22,946 nt of DNA from a virus, in the IMG/VR virus record IMGVR_UViG_3300001472_000009, positions 4,068-27,013 of that record; one strand, written 5' to 3'. The position numbers were made by a program, and so were the translations under genes. The notes below the pieces were generated by a model. That model made no database searches and was not told the DNA's origin. It saw nothing but the letters and a program-made list of their open reading frames with translations. Of this stretch, positions 3,735 through 15,395 are shown in pieces. The stretch's first letter is position 1; each line of letters starts with the position of its first letter.

Positions 3735-4378
3735 TGCCTGCATGTAAAGGAGATACGTATTCGGTTCCACGCCCAGTTTGTCTAACAGAGGGTTGTGATA
3801 ATTTAGCACATAATACTGCATCAGCGGCTAAGCCAGTTTGGCGCAAATACTGTGGTAAGTGTCATACGATACGTAGAAAGAATTTTCAAAATTTATCATC
3901 TAATTTAACTAAAAATCAATACCCTACTTGTTGTATAAACAACTGTAGGAAAAAAGTAACACTATTGGGAACAGACCATGATGGCAATTTAAAGTTTTCT
4001 CAATACTGCGAAAGGCATGGAGGAGTCCCATATCATTTACAGTGGAGAAAACCTGCATGTGATAATATAAATGGTAAAGGATTGCTATCAGATAGAAGTC
4101 CTATTGGATTTGGTTGTACAACTTATATACATTATGATCCGCCCCTTCCTAAGGGAACAAAGTGGTTAGTAGATTATGGCTTCCCACAACCAATGTTACA
4201 AGTTGACCATATTGACGGTTGTCCATATAATGAACCAACGGATGGGTCTAATTTTCAGACTTTATGTTCTTCTTGCCATGATTACAAATCTTGGAAATCT
4301 GGTGATGGGCAAACACCAGGACGAAAAACCCTAAGAAAACAAGAGGAAATTAATGTTGTCCAAAACTTGACAATATAG
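3734..4378 (+). CDS. HNH endonuclease, free-standing
   Basis: A 214-residue cysteine-rich protein. The C-terminal HNH core reads VDHIDG (Asp158-His159), then Asn173 in DGSNFQTLC, then CSSCHDYK (His182), with a Cys pair (178, 181) probably binding structural zinc. Upstream Cys pairs (16/21, 40/43, 66-71) suggest further zinc sites that would bind or recognise DNA. Free-standing HNH nucleases in T4-like phages often act as homing or intron-like mobile elements, or cut competing genomes. The stop codon lies inside the -35 region of the promoter for the next gene, so its last six or so residues are encoded by the 44-base repeat. That arrangement fits insertion or duplication of this block. Nuclease class is secure, biological role inferred. 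Confidence 0.85.
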   Translation: MPACKGDTYSVPRPVCLTEGCDNLAHNTASAAKPVWRKYCGKCHTIRRKNFQNLSSNLTKNQYPTCCINNCRKKVTLLGTDHDGNLKFSQYCERHGGVPYHLQWRKPACDNINGKGLLSDRSPIGFGCTTYIHYDPPLPKGTKWLVDYGFPQPMLQVDHIDGCPYNEPTDGSNFQTLCSSCHDYKSWKSGDGQTPGRKTLRKQEEINVVQNLTI

Positions 4379-5564: not shown

Positions 5565-5906
5565 ATGAGTATAGAAGAAACAAAACAAAAGATAATAGAA
5601 AACCTTAAAGGTGTACATGACCCTGAAATGGATTGTGATGTATACAACTTGGGTTTAATATATGAGGTAAATGTAGGCGAAATGCCTGATACTAAAAAGT
5701 ACTGTCATATTTTAATGTCTTTAACTAGTGCTTTTTGTCCAGCCGCAGATATGATAGTTAACGATGTAAAAGGTGCGGCATTGACAGTTGAAGATGTAGT
5801 AGATTGTCAAGTAGAAATCACATTTAACCCTGCTTGGACACCAGACCGATTAACAGAAGATGGACATGCATACTTAAATTATATGTATATAGATTATCAG
5901 GAATAG
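5565..5906 (+). CDS. DUF59/MIP18-family protein (PaaD/SufT-like)
   Basis: A 113-residue DUF59 protein. The family signature is clear: HDPEMDCDVYNLGLIYEV (residues about 18-35), TSAFCPAAD with the conserved Cys58, and FNPAWTPDRLTEDG at 87-100. Cellular members (SufT, PaaD, MIP18) help assemble or deliver Fe-S clusters to target enzymes. In a phage the likely role is maturation of Fe-S or iron proteins made during infection; the radical SAM enzyme at 12.6-13.5 kb would be one possible client, but this is inference. The gene has a strong promoter placed for a leaderless mRNA and is followed three bases after its stop by uvsW. Confidence 0.88.
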   Translation: MSIEETKQKIIENLKGVHDPEMDCDVYNLGLIYEVNVGEMPDTKKYCHILMSLTSAFCPAADMIVNDVKGAALTVEDVVDCQVEITFNPAWTPDRLTEDGHAYLNYMYIDYQE

Positions 5907-8351: not shown

Positions 8352-8578
8352 CAAATGACGAACTAGTAACAACAATTAAAATACTCGTAAGTGAAATCGA
8401 GGTACAAAAATTAAGAATTCAACCACATGACACTGGTCACATACATACTACTATCGGCGTATTAGAGGATAGAGTAGAAGAACTTTTAAATGAAGTTAAG
8501 ACAGGTGTTAATATGTTTTCTTCATCTACCTATGTAGGTGTAGAAAATGGAAAATACGTAGGCGTTAAAGATGTTTAG
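8348..8578 (+). CDS. Small coiled-coil-like protein of unknown function
   Basis: A 76-residue protein. Residues 1-50 have heptad-like hydrophobic spacing (TIKILVSEIEVQKLRI, VLEDRVEELLNEV) suggesting a helical coiled coil, then a short Gly/Val-rich tail with an internal repeat, YVGVENGKYVGVKD. It overlaps the preceding gene by ATGA, so it may partner that protein. Its stop lies 14 bases before the tRNA gene. Function unknown. Confidence 0.6.
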   Translation: MTNDELVTTIKILVSEIEVQKLRIQPHDTGHIHTTIGVLEDRVEELLNEVKTGVNMFSSSTYVGVENGKYVGVKDV

Positions 8579-8592
8579 TGGTTGAGATAAAC

Positions 8593-8669
8593 GGACCCGT
8601 AGTTCAGCTGGATAGAACGCTTGTCTACGAAACAAGAGGTCAGAGGTTCGAATCCTCTCGGGTCCGCCA
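8593..8669 (+). tRNA. tRNA-Arg (anticodon ACG)
   Basis: A complete cloverleaf of 77 bases including encoded CCA: acceptor GGACCCG/CGGGTCC, D arm GTTC/GAAC, anticodon arm CTTGT/ACAAG with loop CTACGAA (anticodon ACG), variable AGGTC, T arm AGAGG/CCTCT with loop TTCGAAT. It would read CGT and, after A-to-I editing by a host deaminase, also CGC and CGA. It is the only tRNA seen in the window and lies in the gap between two co-directional genes. All stems are perfectly paired. Confidence 0.97.
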
Positions 8670-8682
8670 GAAAGAGAAATTA

Positions 8683-9354
8683 ATGTTTGAATGTAAATTT
8701 TGCAATAAAAGTTTTAAAAGAGAAAAGACTCTTATTGCCCATATGTGTGAACAAAAAAGAAGATTTACAAACAAAGATTCTAAATATGTAAGATTAGGTT
8801 TTCTTGCATATAATCGTTTTTATGAAATATCTCAAAGAGGAACAAAGCAAAGGACATATGAAGACTTTTCTAAAAGTAACTATTATACTGCATTTACAAA
8901 GTTTGGTAAATATATTATAGAAGTAAATGCTATAGACCCAGAAAAGTTTATAGATTTTGTTATAACAGGTGGTATAAAGCTAGACAAATGGTGTTCTGAT
9001 ACTGTATATGAAACTTATATCAGAGAACTAAATAAGAAAGAGACAGCCGAACGTGCAGTCGAAAGAGGCATCTTATTGATGCAACAATGGGGAATGGAAA
9101 ATGATAGACCGTTTAATGTATTCTTTAGGGAGATTAGTAAGCCACGTGCTATACATTGGATCAAATCCGGACGCATTAGCCCTTGGATTATTTTTAATTC
9201 TATGTCTGGTACTGAACTTTTAAATAGTTTCAATGACCATGAATTGAATTTGATTAATGAGTATCTTGAACCTACGTTCTGGACAAGAAAGTTTGAAGTT
9301 AGAAACGATGATGTTAAATTTGTAAAAAACATTTTAGAAAAGGCAGGAATATAA
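8683..9354 (+). CDS. Zinc-finger-containing conserved phage protein
   Basis: A 223-residue protein starting MFECKFCNKSFKREKTLIAH, a C2H2-like zinc finger with Cys4, Cys7, His20 and Cys22 or another nearby ligand. The remainder (about 30-223) is a helical domain with a conserved look (SKYVRLGFLAYNRFYE; PRAIHWIKSGRISPWIIF) that I associate with unnamed proteins of cyanophages and related marine phages. The open frame continues upstream to a GTG at 8578, but that extension would translate the tRNA gene, so the ATG at 8683, just after the tRNA, is taken as the start. It overlaps the next gene by one base (TAATG). Probably nucleic-acid-binding; precise role unknown. Confidence 0.75.
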   Translation: MFECKFCNKSFKREKTLIAHMCEQKRRFTNKDSKYVRLGFLAYNRFYEISQRGTKQRTYEDFSKSNYYTAFTKFGKYIIEVNAIDPEKFIDFVITGGIKLDKWCSDTVYETYIRELNKKETAERAVERGILLMQQWGMENDRPFNVFFREISKPRAIHWIKSGRISPWIIFNSMSGTELLNSFNDHELNLINEYLEPTFWTRKFEVRNDDVKFVKNILEKAGI

Positions 9355-10089: not shown

Positions 10090-10576
10090 TTATGATTGGG
10101 CAAAAGTAGAAAAATCTGTTCAACACATTGCAATGCAAATGTATGAAAGTGGATGGAGACCAGATTATATAGTTGGTATAACTAGAGGTGGATTAGTACC
10201 AGCAGTTATGCTATCTCATATGACTAACATTCCAATGCATACACTCTCAATACAACTTGGCGCAGAAGGTCTTGAAGAAAACACGGAAAGCAACTGTTGG
10301 ATGGCAGAAGATGCCTTTGGTTACAAAGATAAGCGAAAAAATATATTAGTTATTGATGATATTAATCGTGGTGGCGATGCTCTTGCATGGCTTATGAATG
10401 ATTGGAAAGCAGGTTGTTTACCCAATGATACGTTAAGTTGGGAAAGTATATGGCATAATAATGTAAAATTTGCATCACTTATTATGGATCCAAATTCTAT
10501 TGTAGATACTGATTACTATTGTGAGGAACTATATTCAGAGGATGAAAACTGGGTAACATTTCCGTGGGAAAAATGA
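10076..10576 (+). CDS. Phosphoribosyltransferase (type I PRTase fold)
   Basis: A 166-residue type I phosphoribosyltransferase. The PRPP-binding signature is ILVIDDINRGGDA at about 90-102 (hydrophobic strand, two Asp, then the loop), and the pyrophosphate loop is VGITRGGLVPAV near residues 33-44. The general layout and size are those of xanthine/hypoxanthine-guanine phosphoribosyltransferases, but substrate specificity cannot be read from sequence. Such enzymes salvage a base onto PRPP. The phage also encodes PRPP synthetase at 19.3 kb, which would supply the substrate. GGAGGA lies a few bases before the ATG, inside the preceding gene's acidic tail codons. Confidence 0.85.
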   Translation: MKNINYDWAKVEKSVQHIAMQMYESGWRPDYIVGITRGGLVPAVMLSHMTNIPMHTLSIQLGAEGLEENTESNCWMAEDAFGYKDKRKNILVIDDINRGGDALAWLMNDWKAGCLPNDTLSWESIWHNNVKFASLIMDPNSIVDTDYYCEELYSEDENWVTFPWEK

Positions 10577-11361
10577 AACACATTATTCCATTACAACTTG
10601 AACAAGAAACACATTTATTAGAATATTATGCTGGAACATATGGAGATTATGTTTCTGGTATTATATCTTATTCTATAGAAGATTTTTATGACAACTATTC
10701 TACTATGCCTGATGGTGATAGATATTGGGAAGTGGACGATGCTATTGTAAGAAGAAATAGATATGCTTTAGGTCTTAGAGGCGGCGGCTACGAACATGTA
10801 GAGAATTATACGGACTTCATGTTGTCTCATAAAATATGGTTAGAATTTCAGCCTCACTATGATAATATGCAACCAAAAAAAGTATTGTTTAATACGCACC
10901 CAAGAATTGGATTTGCTGATGATGATACTATAATTTATAGAACAATTACAAATAAATTTAAAAATACTAAAACAAAATTCTTAGCAATACCATTAGAGTT
11001 TAATGCTATATTTAAAGTTGCATGTAATGAATATTATACTAGTAGAATACATGACTCAGATATAGATTTAACAACATTTATCGGCATATTTAATTCCCAT
11101 GTAGATAAACAAAAAGGTGCATTAAAGTACATACCAAAAGAACAACTTTTTGTTATAGAGGATATAGATAATTTATCTGCAAAAGATATAGCATGTTACG
11201 GTGACGTAAATAGAGAAAAATTTGAAGAATACAAATCTAATTATAATATAGAAAAAATGGATTTGTTAAATTATCACATGCAACGGCTTATGAAGTTTTG
11301 TGAGTTTACTAATCCAGAGATAACAAAAAAAATGAAAGACTACGTTAATTCATCAATATAA
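10573..11361 (+). CDS. Unknown 262-residue protein, accessory region
   Basis: The ATG at 10573 overlaps the upstream stop as ATGA; a GTG at 10564 is also in frame. The N-terminal LEYYAGTYGDYVSGIISYSI resembles the nucleotide-binding start of some phage sulfotransferase-like or other transferase proteins, but it lacks a clear P-loop. Later segments, KKVLFNTHPRIGFADDD and TKFLAIPLEFNAIFK, look like a Rossmann-type alternation. Nearly all Arg codons are AGA. The 3' end overlaps the convergent hydrolase-like gene by 22 bases. No function is assigned; a transferase acting on the product of the neighbouring acyl cassette is only a guess. Confidence 0.6.
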   Translation: MKHIIPLQLEQETHLLEYYAGTYGDYVSGIISYSIEDFYDNYSTMPDGDRYWEVDDAIVRRNRYALGLRGGGYEHVENYTDFMLSHKIWLEFQPHYDNMQPKKVLFNTHPRIGFADDDTIIYRTITNKFKNTKTKFLAIPLEFNAIFKVACNEYYTSRIHDSDIDLTTFIGIFNSHVDKQKGALKYIPKEQLFVIEDIDNLSAKDIACYGDVNREKFEEYKSNYNIEKMDLLNYHMQRLMKFCEFTNPEITKKMKDYVNSSI

Positions 11362-12362
11362 TTAGCAAGTATCTTTCTATCTACATACGGTCTTATATTG
11401 TGTGTTTGAAAATCTGAAATCTTATAGTCTATTTCTTGTATATTTAAATTATCAAATTTAAACTGTTTAACATAATCAGAAAATCCAATATATTCATTAT
11501 CGTACTTTCCATATAGATAATCTACTTTAATATGTGGATAAGCACCTAAGTGTCTATATGGATCTAATATTTTATTCTCAATATCTAATTTTTTAAAACC
11601 CCAACATTTAATCATATGCATCATTGCTACGTTCATCATGTCTAGCTTTTGTTCTTCAAGGTGTGACGGTCTGTTAAACCATTTGAAATAAGATTTAATC
11701 CAAGGGGAATGATCCCAAGAATAAGTTGATTGTCCACCTGTAGTTAATACATTTGTTACGATATCACTTAGATGGAATGCTACACTTAATGCACTACCGG
11801 CATGTTTAGAATCTGCATATATTATTACATGTTTATATTTTTTCTTAATATATTCTCTTATCTGATTGCACATTTTTTCTTGTGTATCATTCTGTTTGCT
11901 TACACCTAATACCATTGCACTAGGGTATAAAGACTCAGGATATCTTAATGGGTCTTCATTTACAATTAACAAATCAGTATCTAAGTTTACAATTTTTTCA
12001 CTTACATTTGTTAGTGAACTTGTCAGTCTACCCTCATGCCCTGCATAACTTGTAAAGTGAATTATTAGTTTGTCAAAATCTTTATCTGTCTTTTTCCAAC
12101 ACATAGTATAATCTTCACTGACATTTTCAAACTTATCAGTATCATATTGATATACTATATCGGAATAAACATCCCAACTACCTGTTTTTGTTTTTTGTGT
12201 GTAAGTATCTACAACATCTTTTTTGTAGATTTTGGTGAAGATATCGCTACTTTTTATATTGCGTAAGTCAACATACTTATTGTATACTAGCTTTTCATGT
12301 AAAAAGTATAAGTCAATTTCATCGTTTAAGTCTATATCTAAATCGAGTAGTTTAATTTTCAT
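11340..12362 (-). CDS. Alpha/beta-hydrolase-like protein, leftward operon
   Basis: A 340-residue protein. The centre has an alpha/beta-hydrolase look: strand KLIIHFTSYAG (98-108) as a possible oxyanion strand, strand HVIIYADSKHAG (178-189) with a nucleophile-elbow-like Ser185, YLYGKYDNEY (283-292) with Asp288 in the usual acid position, and FQTHNI with His321 near the end. The order Ser-Asp-His fits the fold, but the elbow is A-D-S-K-H rather than G-x-S-x-G. The first 95 residues are a separate, charged region. The start shares one base with the acyl carrier protein stop, so the two are probably made together, which points to a thioesterase or acyltransferase acting on the carrier. That function is inferred. 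Confidence 0.65.
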   Translation of the reverse strand: MKIKLLDLDIDLNDEIDLYFLHEKLVYNKYVDLRNIKSSDIFTKIYKKDVVDTYTQKTKTGSWDVYSDIVYQYDTDKFENVSEDYTMCWKKTDKDFDKLIIHFTSYAGHEGRLTSSLTNVSEKIVNLDTDLLIVNEDPLRYPESLYPSAMVLGVSKQNDTQEKMCNQIREYIKKKYKHVIIYADSKHAGSALSVAFHLSDIVTNVLTTGGQSTYSWDHSPWIKSYFKWFNRPSHLEEQKLDMMNVAMMHMIKCWGFKKLDIENKILDPYRHLGAYPHIKVDYLYGKYDNEYIGFSDYVKQFKFDNLNIQEIDYKISDFQTHNIRPYVDRKILANYIDELT

Positions 12363-12598
12363 TAATCGTACTCCGCTAGATACTCCACTAAATCTTTAAC
12401 GTTTTTAATTTCGTCTAGTCTTTGGTTGTCTAATTCGATATCTAAATCATCTTCTAGTGAAACTAGAATTTCAATACTATCTAAAGAATCTACACCAATG
12501 TCTGTAAATGGTTTACCCGATTCAATAAATGCATCAGTTAGTTCAACCTCTGCCCTATCAAGTGTAATTGCCTTTAGTGCTTCTAATGTTCTACTCAT
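12362..12598 (-). CDS. acpP: Acyl carrier protein
   Basis: A 78-residue acyl carrier protein. The phosphopantetheine site is GVDSLDSIE with Ser38; the acidic helix II (SLDSIEILVSLEDDLDIEL) and the following INxLDEIKNVKDLVEYL-type helices are typical. Cellular ACPs carry acyl intermediates of fatty-acid or related synthesis on a 4'-phosphopantetheine arm added by a holo-ACP synthase, which the host would have to supply since none is encoded here. The frame stays open for 37 more codons upstream, but that part overlaps the radical SAM gene; ATG at 12598 has GGCGG upstream and gives the usual ACP length. It sits between the radical SAM gene (stop one base away) and the hydrolase-like gene. Confidence 0.93.
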   Translation of the reverse strand: MSRTLEALKAITLDRAEVELTDAFIESGKPFTDIGVDSLDSIEILVSLEDDLDIELDNQRLDEIKNVKDLVEYLAEYD

Positions 12599-12599
12599 T

Positions 12600-13538
12600 T
12601 TAATAGCCGCCTTCGTTCTCTTTTGTGTGTTCATAAAATGGTGCAAGTTTGAAGTTTTCTGTAATACGTCCTCTTCTTTTGCTACCTGGGTCTGGAATAC
12701 CACCATCATTGTCAGTATCCCAATTAGTTATTTTTACCCATCTTCCTCTATTTAGAAGTTTGTTTCCTTCCTTCAGTGGGAATAGAATAGTGTTCTTTTC
12801 ATTAAACTTATTGTAGTAAGGTACACCGTGAAAGCTCCAAATATAGTCCTCTGAGACATTAAACTGGTCTGCACATAGTTTCGCTAGTCCTTGTAGTTTA
12901 ATGTTACCGTCTGTGTCTTTCTGATATCTACCTAGTTGGCCAACGTTTTTAATTCTCATCATTACGTTGTTTATTTTTTCTTTTTCTATAAGTTCTTTTA
13001 GTCTTGCTGGTGCTTCATAGTTAATCTCTGGAATAATAATAGTACCAGTATTTAAATTCATTTTTCTATCTACAATATTACGAAGTGCTTTTAGTTTTTT
13101 CTTTGAACAACGCATTTCGTCTATTTGTTCATACCAATCATCGTTGTCTACGCCATTCATACTTAAAGTTACACTACGTAAGCCTGCTTCAATTAAAGTA
13201 TTTAAATATTTGGCATGTGACAATCTTAAACCATTTGTTACTAAAGTACAACTATGTTTTCTTCCGTTGGTACGTCCACGCTCATAGACTGCACGAATAA
13301 AATTTGCACAGTTAGGAGACATTGTAGGCTCTGCACCAATAATACGGACAAATGCACGACCACCAAGCCTATCCATGAAATCTTTGAATTTATCTAAATC
13401 CATATCAGGTGGTTCTCTGTTAGGTATATAACAGTTTTTACAGGTCATATTGCATTTATGTGTAATATCTGCACATATGTCTACAAACGTATTATCTTCT
13501 GGTTCTGAAATATCATAATTAAAGAGTTTATGAAGCAT
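12600..13538 (-). CDS. Radical SAM enzyme
   Basis: A 312-residue radical SAM protein. The 4Fe-4S motif is CNMTCKNC (Cys29, 33, 36), preceded by strand VDICADITHK; the SAM-binding GAEPTM (about 68-73, variant of GGEP) and the later strands SCTLVTNG and SVTLSMNG follow the partial TIM barrel. No SPASM-type cysteine cluster is visible in the C-terminal part, so it is not a SPASM maturase. The reaction is unknown. ATG 13574 is also in frame, but the ATG at 13538 has AAGGT upstream, and the late-type promoter at 13576-13583 would start transcripts downstream of the earlier ATG. It heads a leftward operon with the ACP and the hydrolase-like gene. Confidence 0.88.
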   Translation of the reverse strand: MLHKLFNYDISEPEDNTFVDICADITHKCNMTCKNCYIPNREPPDMDLDKFKDFMDRLGGRAFVRIIGAEPTMSPNCANFIRAVYERGRTNGRKHSCTLVTNGLRLSHAKYLNTLIEAGLRSVTLSMNGVDNDDWYEQIDEMRCSKKKLKALRNIVDRKMNLNTGTIIIPEINYEAPARLKELIEKEKINNVMMRIKNVGQLGRYQKDTDGNIKLQGLAKLCADQFNVSEDYIWSFHGVPYYNKFNEKNTILFPLKEGNKLLNRGRWVKITNWDTDNDGGIPDPGSKRRGRITENFKLAPFYEHTKENEGGY

Positions 13539-13553
13539 ATAGTTTTGTACCTT

Positions 13554-13561
13554 AATAAATA
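13554..13561 (+). promoter_or_regulatory. T4-late-like promoter element (rightward)
   Basis: AATAAATA, close to the T4 late consensus TATAAATA, 40 bases before the oxygenase gene at 13602. It lies inside the 63-base divergent gap. In an AT-rich genome a single eight-base match is weak evidence. Confidence 0.4.
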
Positions 13562-13575
13562 TGTTTATGTACATC

Positions 13576-13583
13576 TATTTATC
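13576..13583 (-). promoter_or_regulatory. T4-late-like promoter element (leftward)
   Basis: GATAAATA on the minus strand (identical to the elements at 16762 and 22685). It would drive the radical SAM/ACP/hydrolase operon starting at 13538. Confidence 0.5.
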
Positions 13584-13601
13584 GTCTCAGGAAACACAAC
13601 A

Positions 13602-14210
13602 ATGTTAAATCATTTATACAAGTTTAACTATAAAATTGATAAAGACCAACTCAGAAAAGAACACAAACTAATGCAAGAAAGTGAAGAAACTTCCTTACAT
13701 ACAGTTAATACTGAGTTATTAGAGACAGTTAATGCAGGTAGAAATACTGGCGAAGATATATTCCCTACGTATCATGATTTAAAAGATAAGGACCAATGGG
13801 ATGATATGGATACTTTAAAAATAAGAGCATTTAAGGAGTATCAATACCAAGATAATTATCCAGAAATGAAAAGATTGACTAATGACTTTGCTAATATATT
13901 AGATAGTAAAGACATAACACCATTCTTTGTATTACAAGAGCAAGACTCAGACTTTCCAATGCATATTGATATGGGGTTTCAATGTGCAATAAACTTAATT
14001 ATAGATGGTGGGGATACACCAATTATGTTCAGAGAAGACGATGGATCTATACATAAATACAACTACGATAATGCATTACTTAACATCTGTAACGTCTTTC
14101 ACGGTGTACCTAAACAACAGGATATGAAAAGAATGCTACTTAAATTTAGAATAAAAGATGTATCATATGATGATGCATGTAAACGTATGATGGAACATTT
14201 TAGTGAATAA
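13602..14210 (+). CDS. 2OG-Fe(II) oxygenase-like protein, copy 1
   Basis: A 202-residue protein with the iron-binding pattern of 2-oxoglutarate/Fe(II) oxygenases: His and Asp in PMHIDMG, a distal His in NVFHGVP 46 residues later, and Arg ten residues after that in DMKRMLLKFRI, the usual 2OG-carboxylate ligand. Strands CAINLIIDG and PIMFRED fit the jelly-roll core. The substrate is unknown. ATG 13602 is used because CAGGA precedes it; the frame extends to 13530 but that would overlap the divergent promoter region. The next gene is a paralogue with overlapping start. The pair lies between the ACP operon and a desaturase, suggesting hydroxylation of an acyl or linked substrate (inference). Confidence 0.72.
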   Translation: MLNHLYKFNYKIDKDQLRKEHKLMQESEETSLHTVNTELLETVNAGRNTGEDIFPTYHDLKDKDQWDDMDTLKIRAFKEYQYQDNYPEMKRLTNDFANILDSKDITPFFVLQEQDSDFPMHIDMGFQCAINLIIDGGDTPIMFREDDGSIHKYNYDNALLNICNVFHGVPKQQDMKRMLLKFRIKDVSYDDACKRMMEHFSE

Positions 14211-14766
14211 TTCTATACATAATATATATTTTGTAATAAACAGAGAAATGCTTATTAAAGAAAGTGAGATTTGTCAATTTGTGCCAATCAATCGTGTTAC
14301 ATTGAAACGTGTTCAGTTAGGTAGCTATGATGCAAAGGGTAAAAAGTTTTCTGACTATCTTAATAAAGAAGATAAAGATTGGTGGATGAGGCAAGATACA
14401 TGGCAATCAAGCATGAATGCTGATGCAGAAATGTTATCTAAGATGCCAGAGACTACTAGAATACTTTCTATATTTAAAAAAATTATAGGCACAAATGATA
14501 TCGAGGCTAACTTTTTTACACAAAAAGTAGGCACTAACGTTAAGATGCATGTTGATGTTGGTACCGCTTGTGCTATCAATTTTATACTCAAAGGAAAAGA
14601 AACTCCAATAGTATTTGAAGAAGATGGGACATTTCATTATAAAGATGCATTGATAAACGTTAGTAAGAAGCATATGGTACCAAAGCAAACATCTACAGAT
14701 AGAATGCTTTTTAAGTTAAGAATTTTAAACATGCCTTTTGAAGAAGTAAGAGAAAAACTAAGATGA
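14203..14766 (+). CDS. 2OG-Fe(II) oxygenase-like protein, copy 2
   Basis: A 187-residue paralogue of the gene just upstream. It keeps His and Asp (KMHVDVG), the distal His (KKHMVP, 41 residues after the first) and the Arg ten residues further on (DRMLFKLRI). Core strands CAINFILKG and PIVFEEDG align with CAINLIIDG and PIMFREDD of copy 1. The start is GTG at 14203, overlapping the upstream stop by eight bases; it is preferred to an ATG at 14248 because the residues between align with the N terminus of copy 1 (HNIYFVINREML against HLYKFNYKIDKDQL). The stop overlaps the desaturase start as ATGA. Tandem duplication followed by divergence is likely. Confidence 0.7.
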   Translation: MNNSIHNIYFVINREMLIKESEICQFVPINRVTLKRVQLGSYDAKGKKFSDYLNKEDKDWWMRQDTWQSSMNADAEMLSKMPETTRILSIFKKIIGTNDIEANFFTQKVGTNVKMHVDVGTACAINFILKGKETPIVFEEDGTFHYKDALINVSKKHMVPKQTSTDRMLFKLRILNMPFEEVREKLR

Positions 14767-15395
14767 ACAAGAGCCAAATATTTATATTATTACATCATAT
14801 ATCATTAGCAGTAGGTATAGCAATGTATGGGTTTGAATGGCCATGGGCCATTGTATCATTTTTCTTTGGAATGTTTTGGGCTTGGGTAGTTGGACATAAT
14901 ATTATTCATTACTATTTTGCTCATGGCAAATATAAAGATAATCTGAAAAGTTATTTTTACACATTATTGTCATTAACGTCTGGACTAGGGTCACCGATAT
15001 CATTTAGTGCATCACATCGACAACATCATAGATTCACAGATACAGAAAAGGATCCGCATTCGCCACATCATATAGGCTGGAAACGTGTATACTTTTTAAA
15101 TTGGGAACCACAGAATATTAATCCTAGGCTTCTTGCTGATTTTGCCAGAAGTAAATTTCAGAAATGGGTTCACAAACATTGGTATTATTTACATATTGCA
15201 ATAGTGCTAGTGATTGCTGTTATAGATTTGAGATTATTATTTTTTGCGTTATCACCTGGTGTTTTATATAGTTTCCATAGTGCTAGTTTGACAAATACAT
15301 TATCTCATATTGGTGGTGTACAGAGAAATGTACAGTTACTAAGACCTCTTGCATGGTGGGGCTGGAACCACGCTGACCATCATGACTACAAATAA
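14763..15395 (+). CDS. Fatty acid desaturase (membrane di-iron)
   Basis: A 210-residue membrane desaturase. All three His boxes are present: HYYFAH (49-54), HRQHH (85-89) and HADHH (203-207), which hold the di-iron centre. Hydrophobic segments lie at about 5-45 (two spans), 64-80 and 143-172. The enzyme introduces a double bond in an acyl chain; the acyl-CoA delta-9 type is the nearest pattern, but a lipid- or ACP-bound substrate is possible. The protein stops three residues after the last His box, so it lacks the C-terminal cytosolic tail of longer desaturases. It is coupled by ATGA to the second oxygenase-like gene. Related desaturase genes occur in marine phages. Confidence 0.9.
   Translation: MNKSQIFILLHHISLAVGIAMYGFEWPWAIVSFFFGMFWAWVVGHNIIHYYFAHGKYKDNLKSYFYTLLSLTSGLGSPISFSASHRQHHRFTDTEKDPHSPHHIGWKRVYFLNWEPQNINPRLLADFARSKFQKWVHKHWYYLHIAIVLVIAVIDLRLLFFALSPGVLYSFHSASLTNTLSHIGGVQRNVQLLRPLAWWGWNHADHHDYK

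Follow-up and report, generated by a model that had tools for sequence, protein, structure and literature searches.

What does a phage do with an acyl carrier protein (ACP) that it encodes between a radical SAM protein (rSAM) and a hydrolase-like protein (HYD)? This question is raised by a 22,946-nucleotide stretch of viral DNA (the window; positions 4,068 to 27,013 of IMG/VR record IMGVR_UViG_3300001472_000009), which comes from a virus record of 89,155 bases (G000). The three genes face leftward; next to them, facing rightward, lie two 2-oxoglutarate (2OG)-Fe(II) oxygenase-like genes (OX1 and OX2) and a desaturase gene. A sequence-only reading of the window had placed these six open reading frames (ORFs) at 11340-15395, where we also locate them, and had proposed that the phage builds or edits an acyl-linked molecule. 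Action on an acyl-linked molecule is indeed probable, given a phage-encoded holo-ACP synthase (AcpS), the linkage of these genes across marine viruses and the neighbours of cellular rSAM homologues, but a fixed six-gene pathway is not upheld. We favour, with a probability of about 0.5, an ACP-dependent, phage-borne module that would tailor an acyl group and transfer it, late in infection. The features are as follows.

11340..12362, minus strand: HYD, alpha/beta-hydrolase-fold protein, 340 aa, Ser185-Asp288-His321 (AlphaFold2 model, Foldseek, invariant residues)
12362..12598, minus strand: ACP, 78 aa, phosphopantetheine site D37-S38-L39 (PF00550, PHROG acyl carrier protein)
12600..13538, minus strand: rSAM, 312 aa, CxxxCxxC (PF04055, invariant Cys29/33/36)
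13539..13601, no strand: divergent intergenic region with two outward-facing, T4-late-promoter-like NATAAATA sites (kept in diverged loci)
13602..14210, plus strand: OX1, 2OG-Fe(II) oxygenase-like, 202 aa (invariant HxD...H...R, profile comparison)
14203..14766, plus strand: OX2, paralogue of OX1, 187 aa (same basis as OX1)
14763..15395, plus strand: short membrane desaturase, 210 aa, three His boxes plus H182 (PF00487, invariant His)

Identity and layout of the six genes

The ACP matched PF00550 (41.1 bits, cutoff 20.8; E 2.2e-10) and the PHROG acyl carrier protein family, and the proposed attachment site at Ser38 holds, with D37-S38 invariant in 15/15 phage ACPs. With 45.9 bits against a TIGR00517 equivalog cutoff of 70.45, the protein classifies by its sequence as an acyl carrier protein, but not as the standard TIGR00517 equivalog. 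An AcpS gene lies in the same record at G000:85942-86355, outside the window and ~70 kb from the cassette (PF01648, 58.7 bits, cutoff 25), and the phage ACP is therefore probably armed with phosphopantetheine; the idea of an ACP without an arming enzyme was rejected on the same finding. A close relative contig of 342,607 bases (G002) also encodes AcpS, plus two further ACPs, and four other loci (L080, L102, L104, and L108) have AcpS-like genes next to rSAM and ACP; the L080 product exceeds the TIGR00516 cutoff, and the matches in L102 and the related L104 are weak. Elsewhere in our record, a Hotdog thioesterase-like protein is encoded at 44963-45361 (L159:17964-18362; PF03061, slightly below cutoff). 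A carbamoyltransferase, a DUF6071 protein, and a very large protein lie beside a second ACP site (L075, L079, and G002 109-115 kb).

HYD retrieved no Pfam family, and its profile returned only spurious matches among PDB sequences. Its AlphaFold2 model (predicted local distance difference test score 86, predicted template-modelling score 0.88) retrieved 420 PDB matches at E<=0.001 with Foldseek, those listed being alpha/beta-hydrolases, and it resembles esterases. S185, D288, and H321 are invariant in 11 HYD homologues and occupy canonical places in the model: S185 between strand 178-183 and helix 185-197, D288 past strand 279-285, and H321 past strand 306-311. The earlier description of HYD as hydrolase-like is thus borne out by fold and triad. 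A profile comparison with the HYD-like F77, which has Cys for the elbow Ser, gave E 0.002 and a probability of 13.5, and a relation between the two is left as a suggestion.

The rSAM matched PF04055 (59.3 bits, cutoff 29.5; E 6.9e-16), and its start is most likely 13538 rather than 13574, because the alignment of its relatives begins there. Cys29/33/36 of the CxxxCxxC motif are the sole invariant cysteines among 27 rSAM sequences, so the protein is judged to have no SPASM cluster and does not classify as a SPASM maturase. The best PDB matches of the rSAM profile were tetraether lipid synthase (E 2e-23) and MoaA (E 7e-23), each match being limited to a portion of rSAM, chiefly its radical SAM core, and rSAM falls far under the NCBIfam cutoffs for both (MoaA, 52.7 vs 284 bits; tetraether lipid synthase, 36.9 vs 450). 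Many radical SAM genes lie in one region of G002 (94-147 kb; L200-L203, L164). G002 and the window also carry iron-sulphur genes, namely an Fe-S_biosyn (IscA-type) protein near a second ACP together with a nitroreductase and a J-domain-like protein (L163:8210-10361, G002 ~32-34 kb), and an FeS_assembly_P (MIP18-like) protein at 5565-5906 of the window; these could serve radical SAM enzymes.

OX1 and OX2 are paralogues, as previously read, with 32-33% identity. Neither has a direct Pfam match, PF05118 included, but the residues expected of a 2OG-Fe(II) enzyme (in OX1, H121, D123, and H167 as HxD...H iron ligands and R177 for 2OG) are invariant in 15 relatives, and their profile matches a phage family that itself matches PF05118 (hhalign probability 92, E 7e-7). 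The 2OG-Fe(II) assignment and, indirectly, an AspH-like (PF05118) link are thereby supported. The desaturase matched PF00487 at 29.7 bits, exactly the cutoff (E 6.9e-7), and carries the HxxxxH, HxxHH, and HxxHH boxes required of a membrane fatty acid desaturase: H49/H54, H85/H88/H89, and H203/H206/H207 are invariant in 9 homologues, as is H182.

The leftward genes had been described as touching or overlapping by one base: ACP and HYD overlap by 1 nt (TAATG), and a 1-nt gap separates rSAM from ACP. OX1 and OX2 overlap by 8 nt, the OX2 start codon being GTG, and the desaturase is coupled to OX2 via ATGA, as had been noted. Measured against two relatives, the ratio of nonsynonymous to synonymous substitution rates (dN/dS) lies at 0.03-0.13 for all six genes, comparable to adjoining replication genes, so these are not chance ORFs; all six are under purifying selection. 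The gene adjoining the cassette at window positions 10564-11361 changes more rapidly than the genes around it (dN/dS 0.18-0.34).

Between rSAM and OX1, a gap of 63 nt contains GATAAATA and AATAAATA, two outward-facing NATAAATA motifs that are kept in diverged cassette loci, and AGATAAATA stands upstream of HYD in a locus with HYD only (L013). ATAAATA occurs only 9 times in the window, both strands counted. We take these motifs to resemble T4 late promoters, and they suggest that the cassette is expressed late in infection.

Linkage, turnover, and cellular relatives

A scan of marine viral contigs with the rSAM alignment yielded 97 viral relatives, of which 80 were kept; deduplication at 90% identity left 48 rSAM loci, in which genes were counted within 3 genes of rSAM (near) or farther away (far). 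The ACP was found 11 times near and never far (p about 3e-6) and the desaturase 25 times near and 11 far (p about 3e-6), with a desaturase near rSAM in 22 of the 48 loci. Near/far counts were 15/6 for GNAT4, 18/11 for the F2 oxygenase, 10/3 for a TauD-like protein, 5/0 each for HYD and an AMP-ligase-like protein, and 3/0 for AcpS. The sequence-only reading had proposed a search of marine viral genomes for co-occurrence; in these loci ACP, desaturase, oxygenase, and acyltransferase-like genes do cluster around rSAM, and their linkage is real.

This linkage takes more than one form. In L075 and L079 the order rSAM-ACP-HYD is retained, together with an additional HYD, although the genes flanking the site are different. 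The rSAM tree places the ACP-bearing rows in separate clades, and its well-supported branches force at least two changes: one ACP clade carries HYD or the HYD-like F77, and the other a desaturase and a protein whose AlphaFold2 model has a GNAT fold by Foldseek. The GNAT20 profile had no match in the PDB, and the GNAT20 assignment was settled by predicted fold. Next to rSAM cassettes in diverse phages there are also small proteins of 95-135 aa that begin with a TRPNxDxPFF-like sequence (L115 2827-3117, L108 4264-4569, L113 4654-5037, and L102 6376-6780); the one in L115 has no PHROG match.

At the site itself, all six genes are present in five close contigs. Three cassettes (L071, L072/L024, and L073) hold five genes, the ACP alone being absent, and there the rSAM stop and the HYD start are 0 nt apart; in cassettes like that of the window the distance is 237 nt, which is precisely the ACP gene. 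Another locus (L017) reads desaturase-rSAM-HYD, and six contigs (L012-L016 and L018) carry HYD alone. With gene content varying in this way, the set is modular, HYD being its most constant member at this site, and an obligate six-gene pathway was ruled out: HYD stands alone, the ACP is cleanly absent, and in other phages a GNAT-fold protein occupies the place of HYD. The independent, scattered occurrence that would speak against a joint function is thus found in part for HYD and ACP, whereas the rSAM linkage across loci stands.

In the 342-kb relative and five more viral contigs, genes for an AMP-ligase, a flavin halogenase, two desaturases, a GNAT-like protein, and a ketoacyl synthase form a conserved cluster (L200:1-5045 plus L199:18604-19965, which is G002 82.1-88.5 kb, and L212-L217). 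The halogenase is of the tryptophan type, and the ketoacyl synthase has Cys-His-His. In L217, a HYD homologue (35% identity, E 1e-52, triad kept) lies directly downstream of the ketoacyl synthase.

A genome scan found 22 cellular relatives of rSAM, most from metagenome-assembled genomes (MAGs); two MAG contigs with phage-type genes (L166 and L170) were not regarded as cellular. Among 754 genomes sampled from two classes, rSAM had only 3 carriers, all known as such beforehand, and the idea that rSAM is a common bacterial enzyme was rejected on this basis; the family is mostly viral and rare in cells. Three contigs from different bacterial groups share an operon of rSAM, a haem-oxygenase-like protein, an MBOAT protein, and a further protein, identified by Pfam in L175 and by inspection in L176 and L177, and L171 has rSAM beside a fatty-acid hydroxylase and a desaturase. 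In four MAG loci, HlyC adjoins rSAM (L169 and L173) or GNAT does (L172 and L167), with RTX-repeat proteins in L169, L172, and L167; these last three are short contigs whose cellular origin is less sure. Such neighbours point to acyl transfer onto surface or secreted macromolecules, an acceptor of this kind being the likely one.

The nearest named DnaB relatives are those of jumbo phages such as PA5oct, Phosso, and Atu_ph07 (46-55% identity); together with the size of G002, this makes an uncultured marine jumbo phage the most likely source. Searches of INPHARED with tblastn gave no matches for HYD, rSAM, and OX1 and a single weak match among catalogued phages for the desaturase (27% identity over 54%), so no cultured relative gives the host. 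In another part of the window, the listed start of the ORF at 8578-9354 overlaps a tRNA-Arg (8593-8669), and the probable start is near 8680.

A proposed acyl-tailoring module and its alternatives

In the mechanism that we propose, the phage AcpS would put phosphopantetheine on Ser38 of the phage ACP, and the holo-ACP would then bear an acyl chain drawn from the host pool or from a starter made by the phage. This putative substrate would be modified by the membrane desaturase, by OX1 and OX2 as AspH-type 2OG oxygenases, and by rSAM, although rSAM possibly acts on the acceptor instead of the chain. HYD, the candidate off-loading enzyme for the ACP-bound acyl group, would use Ser185 to remove it from the carrier and pass it to an acceptor. 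In other phages the GNAT-fold enzyme may hold this position, and beside cellular rSAM homologues HlyC, GNAT, or MBOAT may do so. Expression would be late in infection, through the late-type promoter motifs, and the product would most likely be an acylated surface macromolecule, belonging either to the virion (an adhesin) or to the host envelope (a polymer). A far-reaching extension, which we regard as tentative and rather unlikely, is a widespread virus-borne acylation in which the acyl group is modified on a phage ACP by oxygenases and a radical SAM enzyme and installed by HYD or GNAT on adhesins (giving a lipidated virion) or on the host envelope, with a radical SAM core common to bacterial RTX and surface-polymer acylation.

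Several points weigh against the tailoring-and-transfer module. HYD could be a plain esterase, the rSAM reaction is only possibly a chain or acceptor modification, and AcpS, distant from the cassette, could serve another ACP. The cassette has no acyl ligase or ketosynthase and no loading enzyme within it, and no ketosynthase was found in our 89-kb record or in a same-population 187-kb contig, both possibly fragments. HYD occurs alone and the ACP is missing from three cassettes, so neither is obligate, and phages without the ACP would need a host ACP. As for the linkage, the loci were picked for having rSAM, the argument is one of guilt by association, and the Fisher test takes genes as independent; GNAT20 shows no enrichment within 3 genes of rSAM (2 near, 5 far; 48 loci), and GNAT4 was identified as a GNAT by inspection only.

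The alternative that survives best, although we consider it unlikely, is that six separate auxiliary genes have collected at a cargo site of variable content and that each affects host metabolism on its own. Close relatives do hold anywhere from one to six of the genes at this site, and lone phage ACPs and desaturases are known (PMC5463345, PMC11705849, PMC8224337, PMC7678222). Independent cargo does not readily account for the linkage of rSAM to ACP, desaturase, and oxygenases across 48 diverse loci, for the rSAM-ACP-HYD unit retained at another site, or for purifying selection on all six genes.

Somewhat less probable again is protein modification, in which rSAM and the AspH-like hydroxylases would alter side chains of a virion adhesin while ACP and HYD supply or remove an acyl group. 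AspH/PF05118 relatives often hydroxylate proteins, and both the HlyC or GNAT and RTX proteins beside cellular rSAM homologues and the tail-fibre-like genes that adjoin the cassette in other phages (by inspection) would fit. So would the radical SAM cassettes reported from the host-recognition cluster of pelagimyophages (PMC7029224). The window offers no candidate acceptor in or adjoining its cassette, however, and a membrane desaturase fits protein side chains poorly.

We think it improbable that the cassette serves membrane remodelling only, with the desaturase and oxygenases acting on host lipids, HYD a lipase or esterase, and ACP and rSAM incidental. Cyanophage lipid desaturases have been described (Roitman et al. 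2018, as cited in PMC8224337), and HYD is esterase-like and persists on its own. An incidental rSAM sits badly with the desaturase lying near it in 22/48 loci and with cellular rSAM loci that carry acyltransferases, not lipases. Lastly, it is very improbable that the phage ACP carries no substrate and works as a decoy for, or regulator of, host proteins that bind ACP: ACPs bind many non-biosynthetic partners and this one is dispensable in close relatives, but its attachment Ser is invariant in 15 ACPs, AcpS is encoded, and the ACP repeatedly adjoins modifying and transfer enzymes.

Comparison with known systems

Individual parts of the cassette are already known in phages. Lone ACPs occur in Erythrobacter phage vB_EliS-R6L (PMC5463345) and Alteromonas phage R22Y (PMC11705849), and roseobacter prophages carry fabG-acpP-fabF (PMC8224337); these ACPs share the phosphopantetheine site with ours, but none is reported, in the available portions of these papers, with rSAM, desaturase, 2OG oxygenases, or AcpS. 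Phage lipid desaturases, among them an acyl-CoA desaturase from Lake Baikal phages, are likewise PF00487-type membrane desaturases of aquatic phages (Roitman et al. 2018; PMC7678222), whereas the window encodes a short one of 210 aa, whose gene is linked to those for a radical SAM protein, ACP, and oxygenases. Freshwater pelagimyophages have fabF, a stearoyl-CoA desaturase, and 2OGFeDO, so that ketosynthase and desaturase occur together in a T4-like phage as in the 342-kb G002, but that account describes no cassette with ACP, AcpS, and rSAM (PMC7029224). We found no paper describing the whole set in a search outside which most subscription journals lay.

Phage ACPs have so far been reported singly; in this case the genome also encodes an arming enzyme, and enzymes for modification and transfer are linked to the ACP in a unit that recurs across marine phages and can be tested. 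Should an acylated product be made, this would be dedicated phage acyl-tailoring chemistry for membranes, envelope, or virions, and the mostly viral rSAM family would offer a way into an undescribed modification of acyl groups or proteins, one that is also found, rarely, beside bacterial HlyC/RTX and MBOAT genes.

Tetraether lipid synthase (Tes/GDGT-MAS) and MoaA are the nearest characterised structures to rSAM by profile, a likeness confined mainly to the core and far from either NCBIfam family. In N-acyl amino acid and ornithine lipid pathways (FeeL/FeeM, OlsB/OlsC, and LpxO-type enzymes), an ACP donor, a GNAT-fold N-acyltransferase, and a PF05118-type acyl hydroxylase act; going by these general descriptions, the phages would share the ACP donor, the PF05118-type hydroxylase, and, in the second clade, the GNAT fold, but they add rSAM and a membrane desaturase, and the window cassette is without GNAT. 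HlyC (PF02794) is an acyl-ACP-dependent lysine acyltransferase that activates an RTX protein. No HlyC or RTX match was found by Pfam among the window proteins scanned, both being present in cellular relatives only. The HlyC/RTX system resembles the proposed module in pairing an acyl-ACP donor with a dedicated acyltransferase, and HlyC itself stands beside cellular rSAM homologues, whereas the phage has its own ACP, rSAM, desaturase, and 2OG oxygenases, with an alpha/beta-hydrolase in the putative transferase position.

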